DNA of 64,000 nucleotides from Erythrobacter aurantius. Lineage in GTDB: Bacteria > Pseudomonadota > Alphaproteobacteria > Sphingomonadales > Sphingomonadaceae. Positions within the stretch are counted from its first letter, which is position 1. The number at the start of each line of letters is the position of its first letter. Below the pieces are notes generated by a model. It saw only the letters and a list, made by a program, of their open reading frames with translations, ran no database searches and had not been told where the DNA came from. The translations under genes and the position numbers were made by a program. Below, piece by piece: positions 33,000 to 43,103 of the stretch. The stretch covers positions 1,822,001 through 1,886,000 of the forward strand of contig NZ_CP090949.1 of NCBI RefSeq assembly GCF_023823125.1. Direction: 5' to 3'.

Positions 33000-33070
33000 T
33001 TAACCATTGCTTAGAGTAAGAAAACCGCTGATTTTCAGAGGTTTTCCGGCGTTCGCTAACCGCTTGCTAA
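33000..33070 (+). promoter_or_regulatory. Two CtrA-like half-site pairs before the surface locus
   Basis: TTAA-N7-TTAG (33000-33014) and CTAA-N7-CTAA (33056-33070) each differ from the alphaproteobacterial CtrA consensus TTAA-N7-TTAA at one base per half-site at most. They lie upstream of the first surface-protein gene (start 33097). CtrA controls polar and envelope genes in many alphaproteobacteria; binding here is not shown. Confidence 0.4.
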
Positions 33071-33096
33071 CCATTACTCAGTATCCGCCCCTAAGT

Positions 33097-34077
33097 ATGG
33101 ATACGCAGACTCTCACTAAATCGCTTTTCGTCACATCCGTTGTGGCGGTGTTCACCATTTCCACGCCTGCCTTGGCGGACGGTGTCAGCGCGGGAACGCT
33201 GATCGAGAACACGGCTTCGGCAACCTATGACGATGGGGACACGACCCGCACGGTCGATTCCAATACCGTAACCGTTCGCGTCGACGAATTGCTCGACGTA
33301 ACCACCACGTCGCTCGACAGCGGCCCGATTGGTGCGCAGCCCGGTGAAGTGGTGTTGACCTATGAGATCACCAACAAGGGCAACGGGCCCGAAGCCTATC
33401 TGCTCACAGCCAACCCAACGGTTGCCGGCAATGACTTCGACACCGCCATTGTGGCGGTCGCAATCGATACCAATGGTAACGGCACCTACGATCCGGGTGT
33501 CGACGAAATCCTGACCGCCCCACTCACTACGCCTGAACTCGCGGCTGAGGAGGCAATCACTGTTTTCGTTATCGCCACTGTCCCCGACGGTGTGATTGAC
33601 GGGCAAGCCAGCGAAGTCGAATTGCTCGCCGAAGCCGTCACCGGCACCGGCGCCCCTCGGACCACTTTTGCCGGTCAGGGTGTCGATGGCGGAGATGCGA
33701 TCGTCGGTTCCACCAGAGCGGCAGCCAGCGCAACCGGTTCGATGATCGTCGGCATCGCGACGGTCGATCTCGACAAGAGCGTCAGCCTGCTTGATCCGTT
33801 CGGCGGTACGGGAGCAGTTCCGGGAACGGTCGCCACCTTCACCATTACCGCCACCGTTTCGGGCAGCGGCTCGGTCGACAACTTCGTCGTCACCGACTCC
33901 ATCCCCGCAGGCACGACCTACGCGGCCGGCACTCTCGCACTGGATGGCGCAGGCCTGACCGATGCCAGCGGCGACGACGCGGGTGAAGCTTCCGATGCTG
34001 ACGGGATCAGCGTCGACCTCGGCACTGTCGCGGCGGGAAGCGTCCACGAAATCACCTTTGACGTCACGATCGACTGA
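33097..34077 (+). CDS. Exported DUF11-type repeat protein (surface locus gene A)
   Basis: A 326-residue protein with signal (VVAVFTISTPALADG). Ig-like DUF11 repeats: ENTASATYDDG, then PGEVVLTYEITNKGNGPEA, a Ca-binding-like loop DTNGNGTYDPGVDE at residues 124-137, and a second repeat (PGTVATFTITATVSG). ATG 33097 begins the signal; upstream in-frame start at 33007 is unlikely. First of five adjacent exported genes with related domains; paralogous to gene C (34680). Confidence 0.75.
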   Translation: MDTQTLTKSLFVTSVVAVFTISTPALADGVSAGTLIENTASATYDDGDTTRTVDSNTVTVRVDELLDVTTTSLDSGPIGAQPGEVVLTYEITNKGNGPEAYLLTANPTVAGNDFDTAIVAVAIDTNGNGTYDPGVDEILTAPLTTPELAAEEAITVFVIATVPDGVIDGQASEVELLAEAVTGTGAPRTTFAGQGVDGGDAIVGSTRAAASATGSMIVGIATVDLDKSVSLLDPFGGTGAVPGTVATFTITATVSGSGSVDNFVVTDSIPAGTTYAAGTLALDGAGLTDASGDDAGEASDADGISVDLGTVAAGSVHEITFDVTID

Positions 34078-34102
34078 AATCTGAACTGAGGAAACAAGAG
34101 CC

Positions 34103-34582
34103 ATGAATACGTTCAAGAAAATGGTCGCAGCTCTGCTTGTCCTCTCAAGCACTGCTGCCCCTGTCGCTGCATTCGCACAAAGCCCGGTTTCGCTTTCGGG
34201 CGATGTGAAAGCGGTCGAAACCACGGTTGACGATGCCGGGAACGAGGTGACCAAGCTCGTCGATCCCGATGTCATCGTACCTGGAGATCGCCTCGTATTC
34301 GGCACGGATTACGCCAACAACGGCGCGGAACCGGTTGAAAACTTTGTCGTCACCAACCCGCTGCCCGCGGCTGTGCGCCTTGCGCCCGATGCCGATCCGC
34401 AGCTGGTCGTATCGGTCGATGCCGGGAAAAGCTGGGGCGTGCTCGCCTCGCTGACGGTCGCCGGTGAGGACGGCTCCCCCCGTGCCGCTAGCCATGCCGA
34501 TGTGACGCATGTGCGTTGGACGCTGCCGGTGATCGCGCCGGGCGAAAGCGGACGGCTCGAATATCCGGCGATCATACGCTGA
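34103..34582 (+). CDS. Small exported DUF11-like protein (surface locus gene B)
   Basis: A 159-residue protein with signal peptide (LSSTAAPVAAFAQ). One Ig-like domain with DUF11 hallmarks: VDPDVIVPGDRLVFGTDYAN, VENFVVTNPLP and GESGRLEYPAIIR. It is the smallest member of the locus and may be a subunit or connector. Confidence 0.7.
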   Translation: MNTFKKMVAALLVLSSTAAPVAAFAQSPVSLSGDVKAVETTVDDAGNEVTKLVDPDVIVPGDRLVFGTDYANNGAEPVENFVVTNPLPAAVRLAPDADPQLVVSVDAGKSWGVLASLTVAGEDGSPRAASHADVTHVRWTLPVIAPGESGRLEYPAIIR

Positions 34583-34679
34583 TCGCCGCACCTGAGATCT
34601 TCCGTCGAAAGACGGTTGGTAACCGCCAAGTCCTGCGGGCGGATTTCTTGACGCGGGGCACACGCAGAGGACCACAACA

Positions 34680-35786
34680 ATGACACGTACCACCCAGTTG
34701 CTGGGTGCGGTCAGCGCATTTGCGCTGGTCGCGATGTCCAGCAGTCCTGCGTTGGCGGTCGGAACGACCGCCGGCACGGACATTACTAACAACGTCACCG
34801 TTACCTTCGAGGTCGGTGGCGAACTTCAGAACGAAGTCACCGACAGCGATACCTTCACGGTTGACCGTCGGATCGACGTGAACGTCAACTTCACCGGCGC
34901 GACCCCGGTGTCGGTATCACCCGGCCAGAACCAGGCCGTGCTTTCGTTTGATGTGACCAACCTGTCGAACGCGGCGATCGATCTTGACCTGTCGACCGTG
35001 CTGACGGCTGGCAACAACGCCAACATCGAAAACATCACGATCTATCAGGATCTGGATGGCGACGGTGTGCTGGACCAGGCGGAAATCGACGCCGGTCCGA
35101 TCACCTTCCTTGATGAAGTGGCTGCCGATGATGGCAACGGGACGCAGACCATTTCTGTCCTCGTCGTCGCTGACATCACTACTGATGCAATCAACGACGA
35201 CATCTTCGACATCGCGCTGGTGGCTGATGCCCATGAAGCGGGCGGCAATGGGGTGTTGGGTGCGGAAATCACCGCAACTGCGGGCGCCAACACTGCTGGC
35301 GTCGATACGGTCCTTGCCGACGGCAATGGCGGTACCGGCGAAGACAACGACAATGAAGGCGACTTCTCTGACGAAGGTCAGTTCGAAGTGGCAGGCGCTT
35401 TGATCACTGTCGTCAAGTCGAGCCGCATCGTCAGCGATCCGGTGAACGGGTCAACCGATCCGAAGGCGATCCCGGGTGCGGTGATCGAATACTGTATCGC
35501 GGTTTCGAACGGAGCGGATGCAGCGACGGCAACTGCGGTCAACGTGGCTGACGATCTGCCTGCCGACGTGACGTTTGCCGAAAACGATTTCGGTATCTGG
35601 GTCGATGGCGATGCCGTTGTCAACGCAGGTGTCGCGACCTGCTCGAACGGCACCGATGGCGAAGGCACGAGCGCTACCTACACCGCCGGGGGCGGCACGG
35701 GTGGTCTCGACCTGATCTCGGGCACGCTCAGCGACATTCCGGCGAGCACGACGCGCTCGCTCTATTTCCGCGTAACGATCAACTAA
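34680..35786 (+). CDS. Exported DUF11/EF-hand repeat protein (surface locus gene C)
   Basis: A 368-residue protein with signal (VAMSSSPALAVG). Its N-terminal half parallels gene A. A canonical 12-residue EF-hand loop DLDGDGVLDQAE lies at 124-135, the same position as the Ca-like loop in gene A. The C-terminal DUF11 repeat (VVKSSRIVSDPVNGSTDPKA) is closely related to a module in gene E (about residue 561). Likely calcium-stabilised and surface-exposed. Confidence 0.75.
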   Translation: MTRTTQLLGAVSAFALVAMSSSPALAVGTTAGTDITNNVTVTFEVGGELQNEVTDSDTFTVDRRIDVNVNFTGATPVSVSPGQNQAVLSFDVTNLSNAAIDLDLSTVLTAGNNANIENITIYQDLDGDGVLDQAEIDAGPITFLDEVAADDGNGTQTISVLVVADITTDAINDDIFDIALVADAHEAGGNGVLGAEITATAGANTAGVDTVLADGNGGTGEDNDNEGDFSDEGQFEVAGALITVVKSSRIVSDPVNGSTDPKAIPGAVIEYCIAVSNGADAATATAVNVADDLPADVTFAENDFGIWVDGDAVVNAGVATCSNGTDGEGTSATYTAGGGTGGLDLISGTLSDIPASTTRSLYFRVTIN

Positions 35787-35808
35787 GATCGAAATTCGGA
35801 ACTAGGCT

Positions 35809-38800
35809 TTGCGTGTGGCCCCCTCTTTGAGGCGTCTGGCAGCAGCACTCTCGTTGGTGCTGCTGCCTTTTGGCGTGCTCGAAGAGGGGGTGAGCGCTCA
35901 AAGCGGCAATGCCGAGACAATCGGCACGATTACAAATACCGCAGAAGCAAGTTGGGATTTTGGTGGCCGACGGGTGCAGGCCACCTCCAACACCGTCACA
36001 TTCGATGTGACGATCCCGCCAGCCCAAATCCGCGCTTTCCGCCCGACCTTACAGGGAGGGCTGGAACTCAACTTTCAGGCACCGCTGTGCAGCGTAGCCG
36101 GACAGTCGGCGCAAAGCGGTGGGAACGGAACCGCGAATTCGCAGATCTCGATTGATCCCATGCAAGGCAGAGTCGAACCGACCAGCTCCGTGCGTGCCGG
36201 ACAGACTATCCTATTCGAAGTGACCGCGCTTGCGGCAAATGTCGATCCCTCTCAGGTCGACGAACTCTCGATCACCATCACCACTTCGACTGGTGACCGT
36301 GAGACAGAGACGATTTTTGAAACCGGGCCGAACACCGGCGTCTTCGTCGGGCAGATCGGCACTGTTCGCATGCCTCCGCCTGTTGTCCAGGGCGATTGCC
36401 GACTGGGCATAGTGGACGGTGCAGGGATTTCCATTGCCGCATCGCTTCCCAACGACAACACTGTGATTGTCGAAACCGAAGTTGACGTGCTGGCCGATCC
36501 GTTTGGCGTTGTCTTCGACAGTGAAACGGGCCTGCCGGTAGACGGTGCAAGGGTCACACTGGTTGATGCCGTGACAGGTCAGCCCGCAACGGTATTCGCC
36601 GAAGACGGCGTGACTGCGTGGCCGTCGAGCGTGATTTCCGGTCAGGACATCACCGATGGCGCGGGCAATGTCATCGACATGGAGCCGGGTGAATTCTGGT
36701 TCCCACTGACTTTCCTCGGCACCTATCGGCTCGAGATCAGTCCGCCCGAACCCTATTCGGCTCCTTCGGTCGCAAGCCCCGCCAGCATTGCGCAGATTTC
36801 GCGTCCTGATGGCCGTTCATTCATTATCCTCGACGCCTCGTATGGCGGGACATTCACCCTCAGCGATCCGACCCCGGTGCAGGTTGATATTCCGCTCGAT
36901 CGGCCGAGCCTTGACCTCGGTCTTGTGAAGACTGCCTCGCGCGAGCGGGTGCAGCCGGGCGATGTCGTGTTCTATTCTATCACGGCGCGCAATCAGGATC
37001 CCTCGCGGCCCAAGCGTAACGTTGTGCTGGTTGATACGCCTTCGAGCGCGCTTCGCCTGCGTCCCGACACCATCCGGGTGGACGGGGTAGAAGCTCCCGA
37101 AGCGGTAACGATTGCTGCCGACGGCCGGACGCTTTCGATCAACCTTGGCGATATTGCGGGTGGGGCCGCCCGCCGTGTGACATACGCCATGTCTGTTCGT
37201 CCTGATGCCGCTCCGGGCCGTGCGCTCAACGATGCCGCAGTGACGGACAGCCTCGGTCGCATCGCGCGGGCAAATGTCGCCGTCGATGTCGAGCGCGAAA
37301 CGATTGCGGATCGCATGACGATTATTGGTCGCATCACGGCCGGTCCGTGCACGCTTGATGATCCGCGCCCCGGCATCCAGGGTGTTCGCGTCGTCATGGA
37401 AGATGGCAGCTATGCCATTACTGATGCCGATGGGCGTTACCATTTTGAAGGCGTTGTCCCCGGCACGCATGTTGTCGCCGTTTCGGGCATGACTTTGCCT
37501 GAAGGTGCGCAACTGGTTGATTGCTATCGCGACACGCGCGGTGCCGGTAATGCAAGCTCGCGCTTCGTGATCGGGCAAGGCGGCAGCCTCGTGGTTGCCG
37601 ATTTCCATGCGATCGTCCCGGTGGGTTCGCTCGCACAGGCAGCTGATCTGGCTGAAACCCGCCCCGACGGCGAGGGCGCTCGGGCGGTTGATGCGATTGC
37701 TCGCGAAGCCGCCAAGGATGTCGATGCACATGCCGATGGCGCTCCGGTGATGGATTATGCCCCGAATACTGACTGGATTGCGCTCGGCGACGGTGAAGAC
37801 GGGTTCCTGACACCGGGTCTTGCAGCGAACCCGCGCGCGCCATCCATCAGGGTCGCCATCAGGCATCGGCGCGGACAGACGGTCATCCTGAAGGTTGACG
37901 GTAAGGAAGTCAGCAACCTCAGCTTTGACGGGACGCTTACGCCGGAGCGGGGACAGTTCGCCGTCAGCACTTGGCGCGGCATCCTGCTCGAGAACGAGCG
38001 CACGCTGCTTGAAGCCGATATCGTCAACAGCTTTGGGATGGTGAGCAAGACTGTGACCCGTGAAGTGTTCTTCACGACCACCCCTGCGCGTGTCGAACTC
38101 GTCCCAGAAGAATCGAACCTGATTGCCGATGGTCGCACTCGTCCCGTGGTTGCCATTCGCGTGCTTGATCGCAACAATCGCCCGCTGCGCGCAGGTGTGT
38201 CGGGCAACTTCGAACTCAACGCGCCATATGAGAGCGCCGAGGCAATTGATCGCCAGCAGCTTAACCAGCTTACCGGCTTTGCGCCGACATCTGCACGTTG
38301 GGTCGTAGAAGGCACCGATGGCATTGCCCGAATTGAACTGGCTCCGACCATGGTCAGCGGTTCGCTGCGCCTCGATTTCGATTTCAACGATGGCGAACTT
38401 GTACGCGAGCAGCAGCTGGAAACCTGGATCGAGCCGGGCGATATCGAATGGACGATAGTCGGTTTGGCAGAAGGAACCGCCGGTGCCCGCTCTGTCGCAG
38501 AGAACATGGAGCGCGACGGGCGCTTCGAGAGCGATCTGGGCGATGATGCCCGGGTGGCTCTCTATGCAAAGGGCCGCGTGCTTGGGCGCTACTTGCTGAC
38601 GCTCGCCTATGACAGCGCCAAGCAGCGCGAAGATCAACGGGTGCTCGGCACGATCGATCCGCAGGCCTATTACACCGTTTTCGCGGACGGTTCGTCGCGC
38701 CGGTTCGATGCTGCTAGCCGCGAAAAGCTCTATGTCCGCATCGAGACTTCGACATTCTATGCGCTCTATGGCGATTTCGAGACGGCCTTCGATCAGACCC

Positions 38801-40983
38801 GGCTTGCCCGCTACAATCGCACGGCCACGGGTGTTCGCGGCGAAGCGCGGATGGGGCAGGTCAAGGCCACAGGCTTCGCGGCCGAGATCTCCACCCGTCT
38901 GCGTCGCGACGAGATCCAGGGGCAGGGCATCAGCGGTCCTTATGAACTGGGAAGCCGCCGGATTCTGGCAAACAGCGAAAGAGTGACGCTCGAAGTCCGG
39001 GATCGCTTCCGTTCGGAGCTGATCGTGTCGAGCCAGACGCTCACGCGGTTCATCGACTACGACGTCGATCTGCTGTCGGGAACTATCACCTTTTCGCGCC
39101 CGATCCTCAGCCGTGACGACAATCTCAATCCGCAATTCATCGTGGTCGAGTATGAAACCGACGGGTTCGGCCAAGGCGAATTGAACGCCGGTGTTCGCGC
39201 CGACTGGACCAGCGCCGACGGAAACCTGCGGATCGGGGCCAATGCCATCACGGACAAGGGCGAGGGTGCGCGCACCGATATCGGCGCGGTAGACCTTCGT
39301 GCCCGCATCGGAAAAAGCACCGAAGTACGCGGCGAATTCGCCATGAGCCGCAGCGCGGGCGAGAATTCCACTGGCTGGATTGCCGAAGTGCAGCACCAGA
39401 CGGGCGATCTCGACCTGCTTGCCTATGCCCGCCAGCTGGATGCCGACTACGGCGTGGGCCAGCAGAACGGGGCGGAGCTTGGCCGCCGCAAGTTCGGGCT
39501 TGATGGACGCGTGTTCCTGGCAGAGCAGCTTAGCCTGACCGGTAGCGTTTGGCAGGACGACAGCCTAACGGACACCTCGCGGCGTCGCGCGGCACAGGCT
39601 CAATTGAACCTGACCCGCCGTAACACCGATCTTCGCCTCGGCCTTTCGCATTTCGACGACCAGCTGGCCGATGGCTCAAACAACACCTCCACCGTGCTTG
39701 AGGCTGGCGTGACTCAGCGCCTGCTCAACAATTCGCTGGAACTGTCTGTGGCGAGCGCAATCGCGCTGGACGACGCGGAGAGCGTTGATCTGCCGGCGCG
39801 CCACCGGATCGGCGCTCGCTATGCGTTGACGCGCAACGTCCGGCTTGTCGGCACCTATGAAATCGCTGACGGCGAAAACGTGGATGCCCGCCAGCTTCGT
39901 GGAGGAATCGAAGCGACTCCGTGGCAGGGCGGCCAATTGATCACCACCGTTGGTCAGGAATCAATCGGCGAATTCGGCAATCGCACATTCGCTGCATTCG
40001 GACTCGCGCAAACGCTTCAGGTTACGCCCGAATTCACGCTTGATGCGACCATCGACGGCAACCGTAGCCTCAACGGTGGTCCCGCAGCAGCCGATCTCGT
40101 CAACCCCCAGCAACCGGCTGCGAGCGGCGGTCAGATTGTCGGTGACTTCCAGTTCGAGGACTTCACAGCGGTTACCTTCGGTGGCGCATGGCGCAAGGAT
40201 CGCTGGAGCGTTACGGCTCGCGGCGAATATCGTGACGGCGAGCAGGCTGACCGCAAGGGCGTGACCTTCGGCGCGATCCGCCAACTGGGTGAGGGCAGCA
40301 TTGTCGGGTCGGGCGTTACCTGGACCCATGCCGAAGACCGCAACGGTGCGACGGCCGAAATCTTCGATGCCAGCATCGCTTTTGCGCATCGCCCGGATGA
40401 ATCGGAAATCGCCATGCTCGGCAAGATCGAATTCCGCAGCGATGACATCACCGGCGCGGTCGCTGGCCAGGCGGCGGGCGTCTCAGGCGGTGCTGGGGGG
40501 ACGGCATTGATCGTCGATGGTGATGCCGTGTCGCGGCGTCTTGTGGGCAGCCTCTCGACCAATTGGAGCCCGCGCGGATGGGATGCTGACGAGTTCGGTA
40601 TCGAGCATCAGACCCGCCGTGACGAGTACACGCTGTTTGTCGGTGCGCGATACAACTTCGATGAATTCGAAGGCACCGAGTTCTCCGGCACAACCGTTCT
40701 GGCTGGCGCTGATGCGCGGATTGGTATCGGCAAGCGGTTCGAAATCGGGGCGAGCGGCACTGTTCGCGCCAATCTCGAAGACAATGTCACCAGCTTCTCC
40801 TATGGGCCTACGGTCGGTTTCGTGCCGGTCGATGGGATGCTGCTGACGGTGGGATACAACGTCGAAGGGTTCCGCGACGGCGATTTCTCCGCTGCGCGCA
40901 ACACCGAAAAGGGTGTGTTCGCTGCGGTCCGCCTCAAGTTCGACACCAATACCTTCGATTTCCTGGGCTTGGGGCGCCGGTGA
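35809..40983 (+). CDS. 1.7-kilo-residue exported protein with C-terminal outer-membrane barrel (surface locus gene D)
   Basis: A 1724-residue protein with signal (LPFGVLEEGVSAQ). Domains: Ig-like N-terminus (TNTAEASWDFGG), a DUF11 repeat near 368-500 (VKTASRERVQPGDVVFYSIT), a Cna-B/SdrD-like domain near 523-560 (ITDADGRYHFEGVVPGTHVV), an invasin-like segment near 762, and from about 950 to the end a long series of amphipathic strands with aromatic anchors, suggesting an outer-membrane barrel. The start may be TTG 35809 or GTG 35815. It overlaps gene E by 1 nt (TGATG). Likely the membrane anchor or secretion pore of the locus. Confidence 0.75.
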   Translation: MRVAPSLRRLAAALSLVLLPFGVLEEGVSAQSGNAETIGTITNTAEASWDFGGRRVQATSNTVTFDVTIPPAQIRAFRPTLQGGLELNFQAPLCSVAGQSAQSGGNGTANSQISIDPMQGRVEPTSSVRAGQTILFEVTALAANVDPSQVDELSITITTSTGDRETETIFETGPNTGVFVGQIGTVRMPPPVVQGDCRLGIVDGAGISIAASLPNDNTVIVETEVDVLADPFGVVFDSETGLPVDGARVTLVDAVTGQPATVFAEDGVTAWPSSVISGQDITDGAGNVIDMEPGEFWFPLTFLGTYRLEISPPEPYSAPSVASPASIAQISRPDGRSFIILDASYGGTFTLSDPTPVQVDIPLDRPSLDLGLVKTASRERVQPGDVVFYSITARNQDPSRPKRNVVLVDTPSSALRLRPDTIRVDGVEAPEAVTIAADGRTLSINLGDIAGGAARRVTYAMSVRPDAAPGRALNDAAVTDSLGRIARANVAVDVERETIADRMTIIGRITAGPCTLDDPRPGIQGVRVVMEDGSYAITDADGRYHFEGVVPGTHVVAVSGMTLPEGAQLVDCYRDTRGAGNASSRFVIGQGGSLVVADFHAIVPVGSLAQAADLAETRPDGEGARAVDAIAREAAKDVDAHADGAPVMDYAPNTDWIALGDGEDGFLTPGLAANPRAPSIRVAIRHRRGQTVILKVDGKEVSNLSFDGTLTPERGQFAVSTWRGILLENERTLLEADIVNSFGMVSKTVTREVFFTTTPARVELVPEESNLIADGRTRPVVAIRVLDRNNRPLRAGVSGNFELNAPYESAEAIDRQQLNQLTGFAPTSARWVVEGTDGIARIELAPTMVSGSLRLDFDFNDGELVREQQLETWIEPGDIEWTIVGLAEGTAGARSVAENMERDGRFESDLGDDARVALYAKGRVLGRYLLTLAYDSAKQREDQRVLGTIDPQAYYTVFADGSSRRFDAASREKLYVRIETSTFYALYGDFETAFDQTRLARYNRTATGVRGEARMGQVKATGFAAEISTRLRRDEIQGQGISGPYELGSRRILANSERVTLEVRDRFRSELIVSSQTLTRFIDYDVDLLSGTITFSRPILSRDDNLNPQFIVVEYETDGFGQGELNAGVRADWTSADGNLRIGANAITDKGEGARTDIGAVDLRARIGKSTEVRGEFAMSRSAGENSTGWIAEVQHQTGDLDLLAYARQLDADYGVGQQNGAELGRRKFGLDGRVFLAEQLSLTGSVWQDDSLTDTSRRRAAQAQLNLTRRNTDLRLGLSHFDDQLADGSNNTSTVLEAGVTQRLLNNSLELSVASAIALDDAESVDLPARHRIGARYALTRNVRLVGTYEIADGENVDARQLRGGIEATPWQGGQLITTVGQESIGEFGNRTFAAFGLAQTLQVTPEFTLDATIDGNRSLNGGPAAADLVNPQQPAASGGQIVGDFQFEDFTAVTFGGAWRKDRWSVTARGEYRDGEQADRKGVTFGAIRQLGEGSIVGSGVTWTHAEDRNGATAEIFDASIAFAHRPDESEIAMLGKIEFRSDDITGAVAGQAAGVSGGAGGTALIVDGDAVSRRLVGSLSTNWSPRGWDADEFGIEHQTRRDEYTLFVGARYNFDEFEGTEFSGTTVLAGADARIGIGKRFEIGASGTVRANLEDNVTSFSYGPTVGFVPVDGMLLTVGYNVEGFRDGDFSAARNTEKGVFAAVRLKFDTNTFDFLGLGRR

Positions 40984-43103
40984 TGTCGATTTTATCGCCC
41001 ATTTCCAACGAGGTAAACGCGCTGTTTACCATGCCGCGCTATCGGCAGTTCATGTCCTGGCGCATGCTGCATGTCTCGGTCGAGCGTTCCCTGTTCATGG
41101 CGGCAATGCTGCTTGCAGGGATGCTGTGCCTCGCGTTCGCGCAGCCTGTGATGGCTCAATCGACCAGCACGTTTTCGAACACAACCACCGGCACGGTGAA
41201 CGGCACAAACACCTGCGCAGCCCCTCTGGTGCGCAATTTCAGCGTGGGCAGCAATTTCTCGATTGCCGATTTCAATATCGGCATTCTGACCACACACACC
41301 TGGCGCGGGGATCTCCAGTTCACGCTGCAATCGCCCAGTGGTACGCGCGTCCAATTGACCAATGGCGACACGCAGAACACGAGTGGAGACAATTTCAACG
41401 TCTTGCTCGACGATTCCGCCGCGCAGCTCGTGAACACCGATAGCCCCACCGGCAATCACTCGACTAGCGCGCCGCCGTATCAAAACACCTTCCGGCCGCG
41501 GAACTTGCTGTCGGCCTTCAATGGCGAGAACTCCGCCGGCACGTGGCGGCTCGAAATCTGCGACCTGTTCCCTTCGGCGGACAATGGCAGCTTTCGTCGT
41601 GCCGACCTTTATCTGACATCCGCACCCAGCAACTATGCCGACCTTTCGCTGACGAAGGTTCTGGTTGGTTCTCCGCCGGTTCAGGGCGGCACCGCAACCT
41701 GGCGACTGACGGTAGCCAACGAAGCAACTTCGCCGAGCACGGCAAACAATGTTGTCGTGCGCGACACCTTTCCCGGCGGCTTCAGCTTCAGTTCGTCCAG
41801 CGGTGATGGAAGTTTCAATTCCACGACCCGCGATTGGAGTGTGGGATCACTTGCTCCGGGTGAGACGAAAACCCTCACTCTGGTCGGCACCATTTCCAGC
41901 GCTGCCGGTGCCACGATCACGAATACCGCACAAATCACTGCATCGAGCGTGCTCGATATCGATTCAACGGTGAACAACGGGGTTACCAGTGAAGATGACT
42001 ACGCGAGCGCCAGCTTTGTCGTACAAAGCGGCCGTGCTCCCGGAGTTCCGCCAATCCTTTCCTGTCCGGCCGGCTTTTCGGTGTTCGACTGGGATGCGAT
42101 CCCGGGTTGGGCAAATGGCTCGATCGACAACACTTATGCTTTTGCGAGCTTTGGCAATGTTCGGTTCCAGCTTACTAACGACGGCGCATATCTGAACAAC
42201 GCAACCGTTGGCGGGCAGACACCAACAGTCTTCGATGCGTTCACCGGCGGCCTTGTGCCCGCAGAAGACAGCCTGACGATCTTGTCGAACCAGCCCAACC
42301 AAGCCGGCGATGTAGAGATCACTATCACTCTGCCGCGCGGTTTCACCGGCCTGCAATTCACGATCTTCGATGTCGATTTTGCAGCCAACCAATTCACCGA
42401 CAGGGTCGAAGTTATCGGCAGAAGCGGTGGTGCTACTGTTCTGCCCACGCTCACCAACGGCAATGTGAATACCGTTTCGGGCAATGTGGCAATTGGTGAT
42501 GGCGCGTCAGCCAACAATCAGGCGCTGGGCAACGTCGTGGTCACGTTCACGCAGTCGGTCGACACAGTTGTCATTCGATATGGCAACCACACGAACGCAC
42601 CGGCTGATCCCGGCCAGCAAGGCATCGGTGTGCACGACATTACCGTTTGCGATCCCTTTACTACCCTGTCCGTTAGCAAGGTGAGCTCGATCATCTCCGA
42701 CCCGGTCAACGGCGCCACCAACCCCAAGGCCATTCCCGGTGCGACGGTCGAATATCTGATCACCGTAAGCAATACCGGCAGCGAGCCTGCAGACGCGGAC
42801 AGCGTGGTTGTGTGGGATGATGGTCCGGCGGATGCCAAATTGTGCCTGATTACGCGCGCCGGAGGGCCGGTGATTTTCGCCGATCCCGGCTCCAATTCCA
42901 ATCTGACTTACAGTTTCGCGAGCCTTGCGTCCGCAATCGACGATCTGGAATTCTCCAACGATAACGGAGTGAGCTTTGCTTACACGCCGAGCGCTGATGC
43001 AGAAGGGTGTGACACCGCGGTTACCGATTTTCGCGTCAGACCCGGCGGCGCCTTTGCCGGGGGTGGGAACTTCACCATAACTGTTCGGTATCGGATCGAA
43101 TAG
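40983..43103 (+). CDS. Exported P-domain and DUF11 protein (surface locus gene E)
   Basis: A 706-residue protein with a signal (AFAQPVMAQS after a longer cytosolic leader). Residues about 60-210 match a proprotein-convertase P-domain (LTTHTWRGDLQFTLQSPSGT, FRPRNLLSAFNGENSAGTWR) without a protease. A DUF11 repeat follows, then a jelly-roll-like region (FDWDAIPGWANGS) and a second DUF11 repeat related to gene C. ATG 40983 shares one base with the gene D stop. P-domains often help folding, export or adhesion. Confidence 0.75.
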   Translation: MSILSPISNEVNALFTMPRYRQFMSWRMLHVSVERSLFMAAMLLAGMLCLAFAQPVMAQSTSTFSNTTTGTVNGTNTCAAPLVRNFSVGSNFSIADFNIGILTTHTWRGDLQFTLQSPSGTRVQLTNGDTQNTSGDNFNVLLDDSAAQLVNTDSPTGNHSTSAPPYQNTFRPRNLLSAFNGENSAGTWRLEICDLFPSADNGSFRRADLYLTSAPSNYADLSLTKVLVGSPPVQGGTATWRLTVANEATSPSTANNVVVRDTFPGGFSFSSSSGDGSFNSTTRDWSVGSLAPGETKTLTLVGTISSAAGATITNTAQITASSVLDIDSTVNNGVTSEDDYASASFVVQSGRAPGVPPILSCPAGFSVFDWDAIPGWANGSIDNTYAFASFGNVRFQLTNDGAYLNNATVGGQTPTVFDAFTGGLVPAEDSLTILSNQPNQAGDVEITITLPRGFTGLQFTIFDVDFAANQFTDRVEVIGRSGGATVLPTLTNGNVNTVSGNVAIGDGASANNQALGNVVVTFTQSVDTVVIRYGNHTNAPADPGQQGIGVHDITVCDPFTTLSVSKVSSIISDPVNGATNPKAIPGATVEYLITVSNTGSEPADADSVVVWDDGPADAKLCLITRAGGPVIFADPGSNSNLTYSFASLASAIDDLEFSNDNGVSFAYTPSADAEGCDTAVTDFRVRPGGAFAGGGNFTITVRYRIE

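Follow-up and report, generated by a model that had tools for sequence, protein, structure and literature searches.

A conserved surface-protein locus of an Erythrobacter-type bacterium with a DUF11/CLIPPER domain apparently split between neighbouring gene products

Gene content and conservation of the locus

The window, a 64,000-nt stretch of an Erythrobacter-type bacterium (positions 1822001–1886000 of the 3.42 Mb contig NZ_CP090949.1), contains five genes, A to E, on the same strand (Table 1), with the start of E overlapping the stop of D. Signal peptides of the gene products were assigned by eye. DUF11-type matches (Pfam, NCBIfam) are present in all five products, which together with the open reading frames confirms the preliminary description of a five-gene locus of related Ig-like folds. 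The inner DUF11 domains of D and E score above the Pfam cut-off, the matches in A and B fall below it, and the match in C is solely to TIGR01451 (NCBIfam), at its cut-off. The whole genome to which the window belongs yields six DUF11 matches, all six of them inside the locus. DxDxDG-type loops, previously described as Ca loops, are visible in the sequences of A and C, and the one in C is conserved, reading ‘IYxDxNGDGVLDA’ in the C consensus. The P-domain described earlier likewise corresponds to a clear profile match in the front part of E.

Table 1 Features of the locus and positions in the window
Feature	Position	Strand	Description
Locus A–E	33097–43103	+	Five same-strand open reading frames filling the whole of this interval
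CtrA-like box	33056..33072	+	CTAA-N7-CTAACC, 25 nt ahead of the A start codon (ATG)
Gene A	33097..34077	+	326 aa; putative donor, middle part and acceptor; proposed link adjoining the tip
A donor hairpin (putative)	33187..33288	+	Residues 31–64, Asn38; SAGTLIENTASATY...SNTVTVRVDE
A acceptor (putative)	33751..34074	+	DUF11 without its last strands; Lys227, Asp267; hhalign 4–99 of 133, 98%
Gene B	34103..34582	+	159 aa; acceptor-like single DUF11 with Asn replacing Asp, without donor
Gene C	34680..35786	+	368 aa; putative donor, middle domain and acceptor; proposed link adjoining D
C donor (putative)	34767..34868	+	Residues 30–63, Asn37; assigned by motif
C acceptor (putative)	35394..35783	+	DUF11 without its last strands; Lys246, Asp291; hhalign 13–99 of 133, 97%
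Gene D	35809..40983	+	1724 aa; putative donor, stalk domains, very large predicted outer-membrane barrel; proposed anchor
D donor hairpin (putative)	35914..36015	+	Residues 36–69, Asn43; GTITNTAEASW...SNTVTFDV
Complete DUF11/CLIPPER inside D	36904..37308	+	Lys374, Asp409, Asn474
CarboxypepD_reg domain of D	37372..37488	+	Pfam, E 1.1e-8
Predicted outer-membrane barrel region of D	38410..40980	+	Residues 868–1724, long strands from residue 1108 on; AF2 and fold matches
Gene E	40983..43103	+	About 706 aa; front part variable, with P-domain; a single complete DUF11; acceptor at the end; proposed tip
P-domain of E	41268..41597	+	Pfam P_proprotein, E 1e-12
Complete DUF11 inside E	41640..41978	+	Pfam 1–109 of 114
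E acceptor (putative)	42657..43100	+	DUF11 without its last strands; Lys (SVSKVSS), Asp (VVWDDGP); hhalign 4–100 of 133, 96%

A–B–C–D is a real, conserved unit. Rather than being scattered or unrelated in relatives, a prospect raised in the preliminary description, the four genes lie together on one strand and in identical order in all 142 loci in which all of them were assigned. These 142 come from a collection of 168 distinct D loci; each of the remaining 26 is without at least one assigned gene, for several of them because the retrieved DNA stops there. The same order was found in 125 of 125 loci of a smaller set, intergenic gaps do not exceed 180 nt in a set of 80 loci, and in some genomes the block is present a second time, diverged and with the order again kept. 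The genes flanking the block differ between genomes. D homologues occur in 24 of the 61 genomes of one set, in 76 of 296 genomes (28 of 79 genera) across the order, and in 133 of 397 genomes (50 of 96 genera) across the family, where about a dozen of the hits represent a related barrel or stalk only. The best 80 of 505 relatives include named members of Erythrobacter, Qipengyuania, Novosphingobium, Blastomonas and Sphingomonas, with the nearest named homologues in Erythrobacter and Qipengyuania.

E is far more variable than A–D. Of the 168 loci, 81 have a recognisable E-type end on the downstream side of D, commonly directly behind it; in some other loci E lies upstream or is divergent, and elsewhere none was recognised (56 of the 149 loci with A). 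The E genes seen encode products of about 390 to 1850 aa, whose fronts differ between loci and whose last strand is conserved.

A CtrA-like box precedes A and is the sole match to its pattern on either strand of the window; we take CTAA-N7-CTAACC to be the CtrA-like consensus. The pattern recurs before A in 27 of 148 loci (expected approximately 0.004 per locus) and in the vicinity of the E start in 17 of 81 loci (expected approximately 0.003 per locus), which suggests possible cell-cycle or motility-linked control.

A DUF11 domain apparently divided between gene products

Unlike the inner domains of D and E, the domains that close A, B, C and E at the C-terminus are not whole DUF11 domains within one chain. 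With the complete DUF11 inside D as a yardstick of 133 positions, hhalign aligned the ends of A, C and E (Table 1) and the whole of B (positions 15–100) with probabilities of 96–98%. All four alignments stop at position 99 or 100, together with the stop codons. The Pfam profile gives a similar picture, matching A over positions 14–84 of 114 and the inner domain of E over 1–109. Apart from a few exceptions, each of A, B, C and E ends at most a few residues from an xFxVxIN-type strand. The stretch absent from these acceptors corresponds to about positions 101–133, including the part that bears the Asn. The Lys assigned to the C acceptor lies just ahead of its aligned stretch.

Strands of the kind absent from the acceptors are found at the mature N-termini of A (AGTLIENTASATY...SNTVTVRV), C (AGTDITNNVTVTF) and D (GTITNTAEASW...SNTVTFDV). 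For these short segments, hhalign places the A donor on positions 109–133 of the complete domain with a poor E-value (0.083), and the D donor on positions 110–133, again poorly (E 0.23); the C segment, equally short, was aligned elsewhere. Each half is weakly recognisable alone, and the case for a split domain rests on conserved residues and on the gene set. Taken together, these features suggest a DUF11 domain split over neighbouring gene products, with A, C and D carrying donors N-terminally and A, B, C and E carrying truncated acceptors C-terminally. This arrangement is absent from the preliminary description.

Distribution of the Lys–Asp–Asn triad

According to a 2025 survey (PMC12617251), DUF11 has been renamed CLIPPER, and a crystal structure (9IFR) has a Lys715–Asn806 bond with Asp748 as the putative catalytic residue; without the Lys, the unfolding transition of the domain moves from approximately 80 to approximately 45 degrees. 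When the inner D domain is aligned to 9IFR by its profile (E 0.016), Lys falls on Lys and Asn on Asn; the two are 91 residues apart, as are Lys715 and Asn806. Across 168 loci, Lys, Asp and Asn of this inner domain are each kept in 163, and the five exceptions (L051, L052, L053, L054 and L169) lose all three together, providing an internal control that these residues are the triad.

In the split domains, the same triad appears to be divided: the acceptors of A, C and E carry Lys and Asp, and the donors of A, C and D carry Asn. The acceptor residues are conserved in A (Lys in 148 and Asp in 147 of 149 loci), in C (161 and 159 of 161) and, less strictly, in E (each in 89 of 97). The donor Asn is present in A in 142 of 149 loci, in C in 161 of 161 and in D in 163 of 168, with gaps accounting for three of the remaining five. 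Asn37 and Lys246 are among only 15 invariant positions in 74 C proteins, and Asn43 is invariant within an otherwise loose N-terminus in 18 D proteins with identities down to 35%. B differs: the Asp position holds Asn in 123 of 130 proteins, and a Lys near its start is found in just 46 of 70.

Co-loss between genes and the pairing of halves

Eight loci have a changed E acceptor, and both Lys and Asp are altered in every one of them. The A donor Asn is lost in five of these eight, versus none of the 85 loci in which both E residues are intact. Seen from the other gene, the seven loci (of 149) without the A donor Asn comprise five with a changed E, two in which no E-type gene was found (L171 and L275) and none with an intact E. 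One of the seven, L172, has two divergent E-type genes, the better of which has Lys and Asp changed. Three loci (L051, L277 and L278) have a changed E and yet keep the Asn of A. In six of the seven Asn-less loci, the Lys and Asp of A itself are intact, so the A donor seemingly does not serve A’s own acceptor. L180, a gene-complete Blastomonas locus, has lost the Asn of A and D, the Asp of A and C, and both residues of E, and keeps the Asn of C.

The association between A and E gives a Fisher p of 1e-6 if kinship is ignored. Mapped onto a tree of 93 loci, E has changed independently only four times and A likewise four times; about three independent pairs agree and none runs in the opposite direction (sign test p 0.25). 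The lineages with a changed E make up 11.8% of the tree length, giving a rough and crude p of 0.0016 for three A losses falling there by chance. The pairing of A with E rests on three or four independent losses, with kinship weakening the statistics. This co-loss points to pairing of the A donor with the E acceptor. If so, the A acceptor would by elimination receive the C donor and the C acceptor the D donor, giving E–A–C–D, which we infer to be the most economical order. Alternatively, A may pair with D, and C with C.

A very large predicted barrel in D

The C-terminal half of D is predicted to be a very large outer-membrane barrel, in agreement with the preliminary description, whose reading depended on D having one. 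Residues 868–1724 were folded by AF2 with 65 sequences, and the model (mean pLDDT 73.6, pTM 0.60) has 32 strands of at least 8 residues from model residue 241 on. Its structural matches are mostly outer-membrane barrels, with Deinococcus SlpA as the best Foldseek match. The sequence of the barrel gave no match to solved structures, ushers included.

Related loci beyond this gene set

Loci with the same cut and the same gene logic, as judged from sequence, are found beyond this gene set, including in Acinetobacter and in another class (L057, L289, L296 and L297). Eleven loci with a more distant barrel relative (L057, L058, L104–L106 and L284–L289) represent a second kind of DUF11 locus. In L057 and L289, separate DUF11 genes encode an acceptor only, a donor plus acceptor, and a donor with an inner complete domain, and their acceptors end at position 98 of 132, the same cut as above. 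The other nine have one long protein, several of which reach the end of the fetched stretch, in what looks like a fused form. By eye, L057 and L058 both have a LysM/FecR-like gene behind the barrel, and a CHASE2/cyclase-like gene is present as well in L057.

L297, on a plasmid of Acinetobacter haemolyticus (CP085288.1, 185587–206907), carries a B-like gene, a broken subunit gene whose pieces have donor-like and acceptor-like ends, a D-like gene of 2008 aa with the donor IIQNIAYASY, an OmpA gene, and an E-like gene of 978 aa that ends in SLYFGIKLN and has, by eye, the Lys and Asp. L296, from another class, has a B-like gene and two subunits in which a donor Asn as well as an acceptor Lys and Asp can be seen by eye; one of these subunits has a DUF11 match to positions 13–83 of 114 near its end. 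In the D-like protein of L296, an OmpA domain (PF00691, E 1.2e-9) stands between the stalk and the barrel, which would place that stretch in the periplasm. Its donor has Ser, while both subunit acceptors retain Lys and Asp; this speaks against a covalent D link in the L296 lineage.

L296 is the single locus read from one other family of the phylum; many genomes of that family encode proteins related to the D barrel over nearly its full length (E down to 7e-192). D relatives also occur in 40 plasmid records, 16 of them from Deinococcus, and some plasmid relatives are annotated as TonB-dependent receptors, though the match is to the D barrel family.

Proposed assembly and alternative explanations

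We consider it probable that the locus encodes a surface fibre in which a split DUF11/CLIPPER isopeptide domain links each subunit head to tail with the next. Signal peptides would take the subunits over the inner membrane, freeing the donor at each mature N-terminus, and the donor of one protein would complete the acceptor of the next. Lys, Asp and Asn, once buried together, would very likely form a Lys–Asn isopeptide bond without an enzyme, as a natural tag and catcher. A chain E–A–C would form by strand insertion and Lys–Asn welding and exit through D or by another route, and the N-terminal donor of D would fix it. E, with an acceptor, no donor and a fast-changing, adhesin-like front that includes the P-domain, would be the free end or adhesive tip. 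D, with a donor, no acceptor and the predicted barrel, would be the membrane anchor and may also form the exit pore. The preliminary description had proposed a surface-structure locus in which D could anchor or export the other proteins; our results support such a locus with D as the anchor, and export through D would be a further possibility. Our guess for B, which is acceptor-like and has neither a donor nor the reactive pair, is a chaperone or cap that holds donors reversibly in the periplasm. A more specific version, which we put forward tentatively and with somewhat less than even confidence, is a natural covalent tag-and-catcher pilus of Gram-negative bacteria, an appendage class widespread from sphingomonads to Acinetobacter, in which the welded E–A–C chain would pass tip first through a giant usher-like barrel in D, the D donor would be the last tag, and B would be a non-welding chaperone that keeps the tags apart.

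The subunits could instead be held together by donor-strand complementation without a covalent bond, as in a pilus, with Lys, Asp and Asn serving the fold only. Such fibres are commoner (TasA and archaeal bundling pili, cited in PMC11952670), and L180, L052, L053 and L169 are without Asn or Lys and Asp and keep genes and strands. Yet the triad is lost jointly, both within the inner D domain (five of five loci) and across genes A and E, and its residues correspond to the bonded residues of 9IFR; we regard a purely non-covalent fibre as unlikely, roughly a one-in-five prospect. It is less probable still that the N-terminal hairpins of A and C fold into their own C-terminal domains, making circularly permuted monomers and no chain. 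Both halves are indeed present in A and in C, and a model of the C monomer docks its own donor hairpin with a pLDDT of about 95. Self-closure of this kind is at odds with B and E, which have an acceptor and no donor, with D, which has a donor and no acceptor, and with the A losses, which accompany those of E and leave A’s own Lys and Asp intact in six of seven loci.

DUF11 proteins are, according to PMC12617251, widespread surface proteins. A, B, C and E could each act on its own as an adhesin or coat protein, and D could be a barrel protein that serves either purpose independently of them; their shared ends would then reflect common descent only, and the SlpA match of the D barrel would agree with this possibility. 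Several observations count against it: four genes are cut at the same point, the part that they lack is found at three other N-termini, the gene order is strict, losses coincide across genes, and the arrangement recurs in other lineages. We consider unlinked proteins very improbable.

Comparison with known systems

The closest relative by fold is the CLIPPER domain itself (PF01345, 9IFR), with which the split domains share the fold, as judged by profile, and the Lys–Asp–Asn triad. The known form is a whole domain in one chain, whereas here it would be divided between two gene products, and the available text of PMC12617251 makes no mention of a natural split form. Engineered tag/catcher pairs such as SpyTag/SpyCatcher are also split isopeptide domains, the halves of which recognise one another and bond; they were made in the laboratory from single-chain domains, whereas we propose a natural split that would serve assembly. 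Phage capsids and sporesilk fibres, cited in PMC12617251, likewise have enzyme-free interchain bonds; the former are formed by capsid proteins and the latter by an alpha-helical hairpin fold, rather than by a split Ig-like domain. In the literature searched, which covered few subscription papers and is thus weak evidence of absence, we found neither a natural isopeptide or DUF11 domain split over neighbouring genes nor this gene set.

The archaeal thread of Saci_0406 (PMC9715654 and PMC11607397) is also built head to tail with an N-terminal donor strand and an intermolecular isopeptide, features that we propose here from genes. In the thread (PMC9715654), Asn57 bonds with the N-terminal amine that Asp24 provides two subunits further along; the conserved residues of our locus suggest a bond between Lys and Asn instead. 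The thread further has one main subunit and no outer membrane, in contrast to the different subunits, barrel anchor and Lys side chain–Asn bond proposed here.

In chaperone-usher pili (FimD, PapC), a donor strand completes the Ig-like domain of a neighbour, and the locus has ends that appear complementary by sequence, with short donor matches (E 0.083 and 0.23). Here, however, two strands would be donated, and D itself bears a donor and would stay attached. Searched with Pfam up to E 1, D has no usher match, and none of A–E matches a PapD-type chaperone; the resemblance of the predicted D barrel to the usher fold is a hint only.

Should the bond prove true, nature would have its own version of engineered tag/catcher chemistry, and the locus would build a covalent pilus that needs no sortase. 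The many unnamed DUF11 operons of this family in Pseudomonadota would then have an explanation and could supply tag/catcher pairs for direct use, and the way in which a barrel protein anchors a welded chain, and perhaps exports it, could be put to the test. Donor-strand fibres, the isopeptide of the archaeal thread and split isopeptide domains as a laboratory tool are all known; relative to the known donor-strand surface fibres, the proposed fibre would be new in its unusual chemistry and in its barrel anchor.
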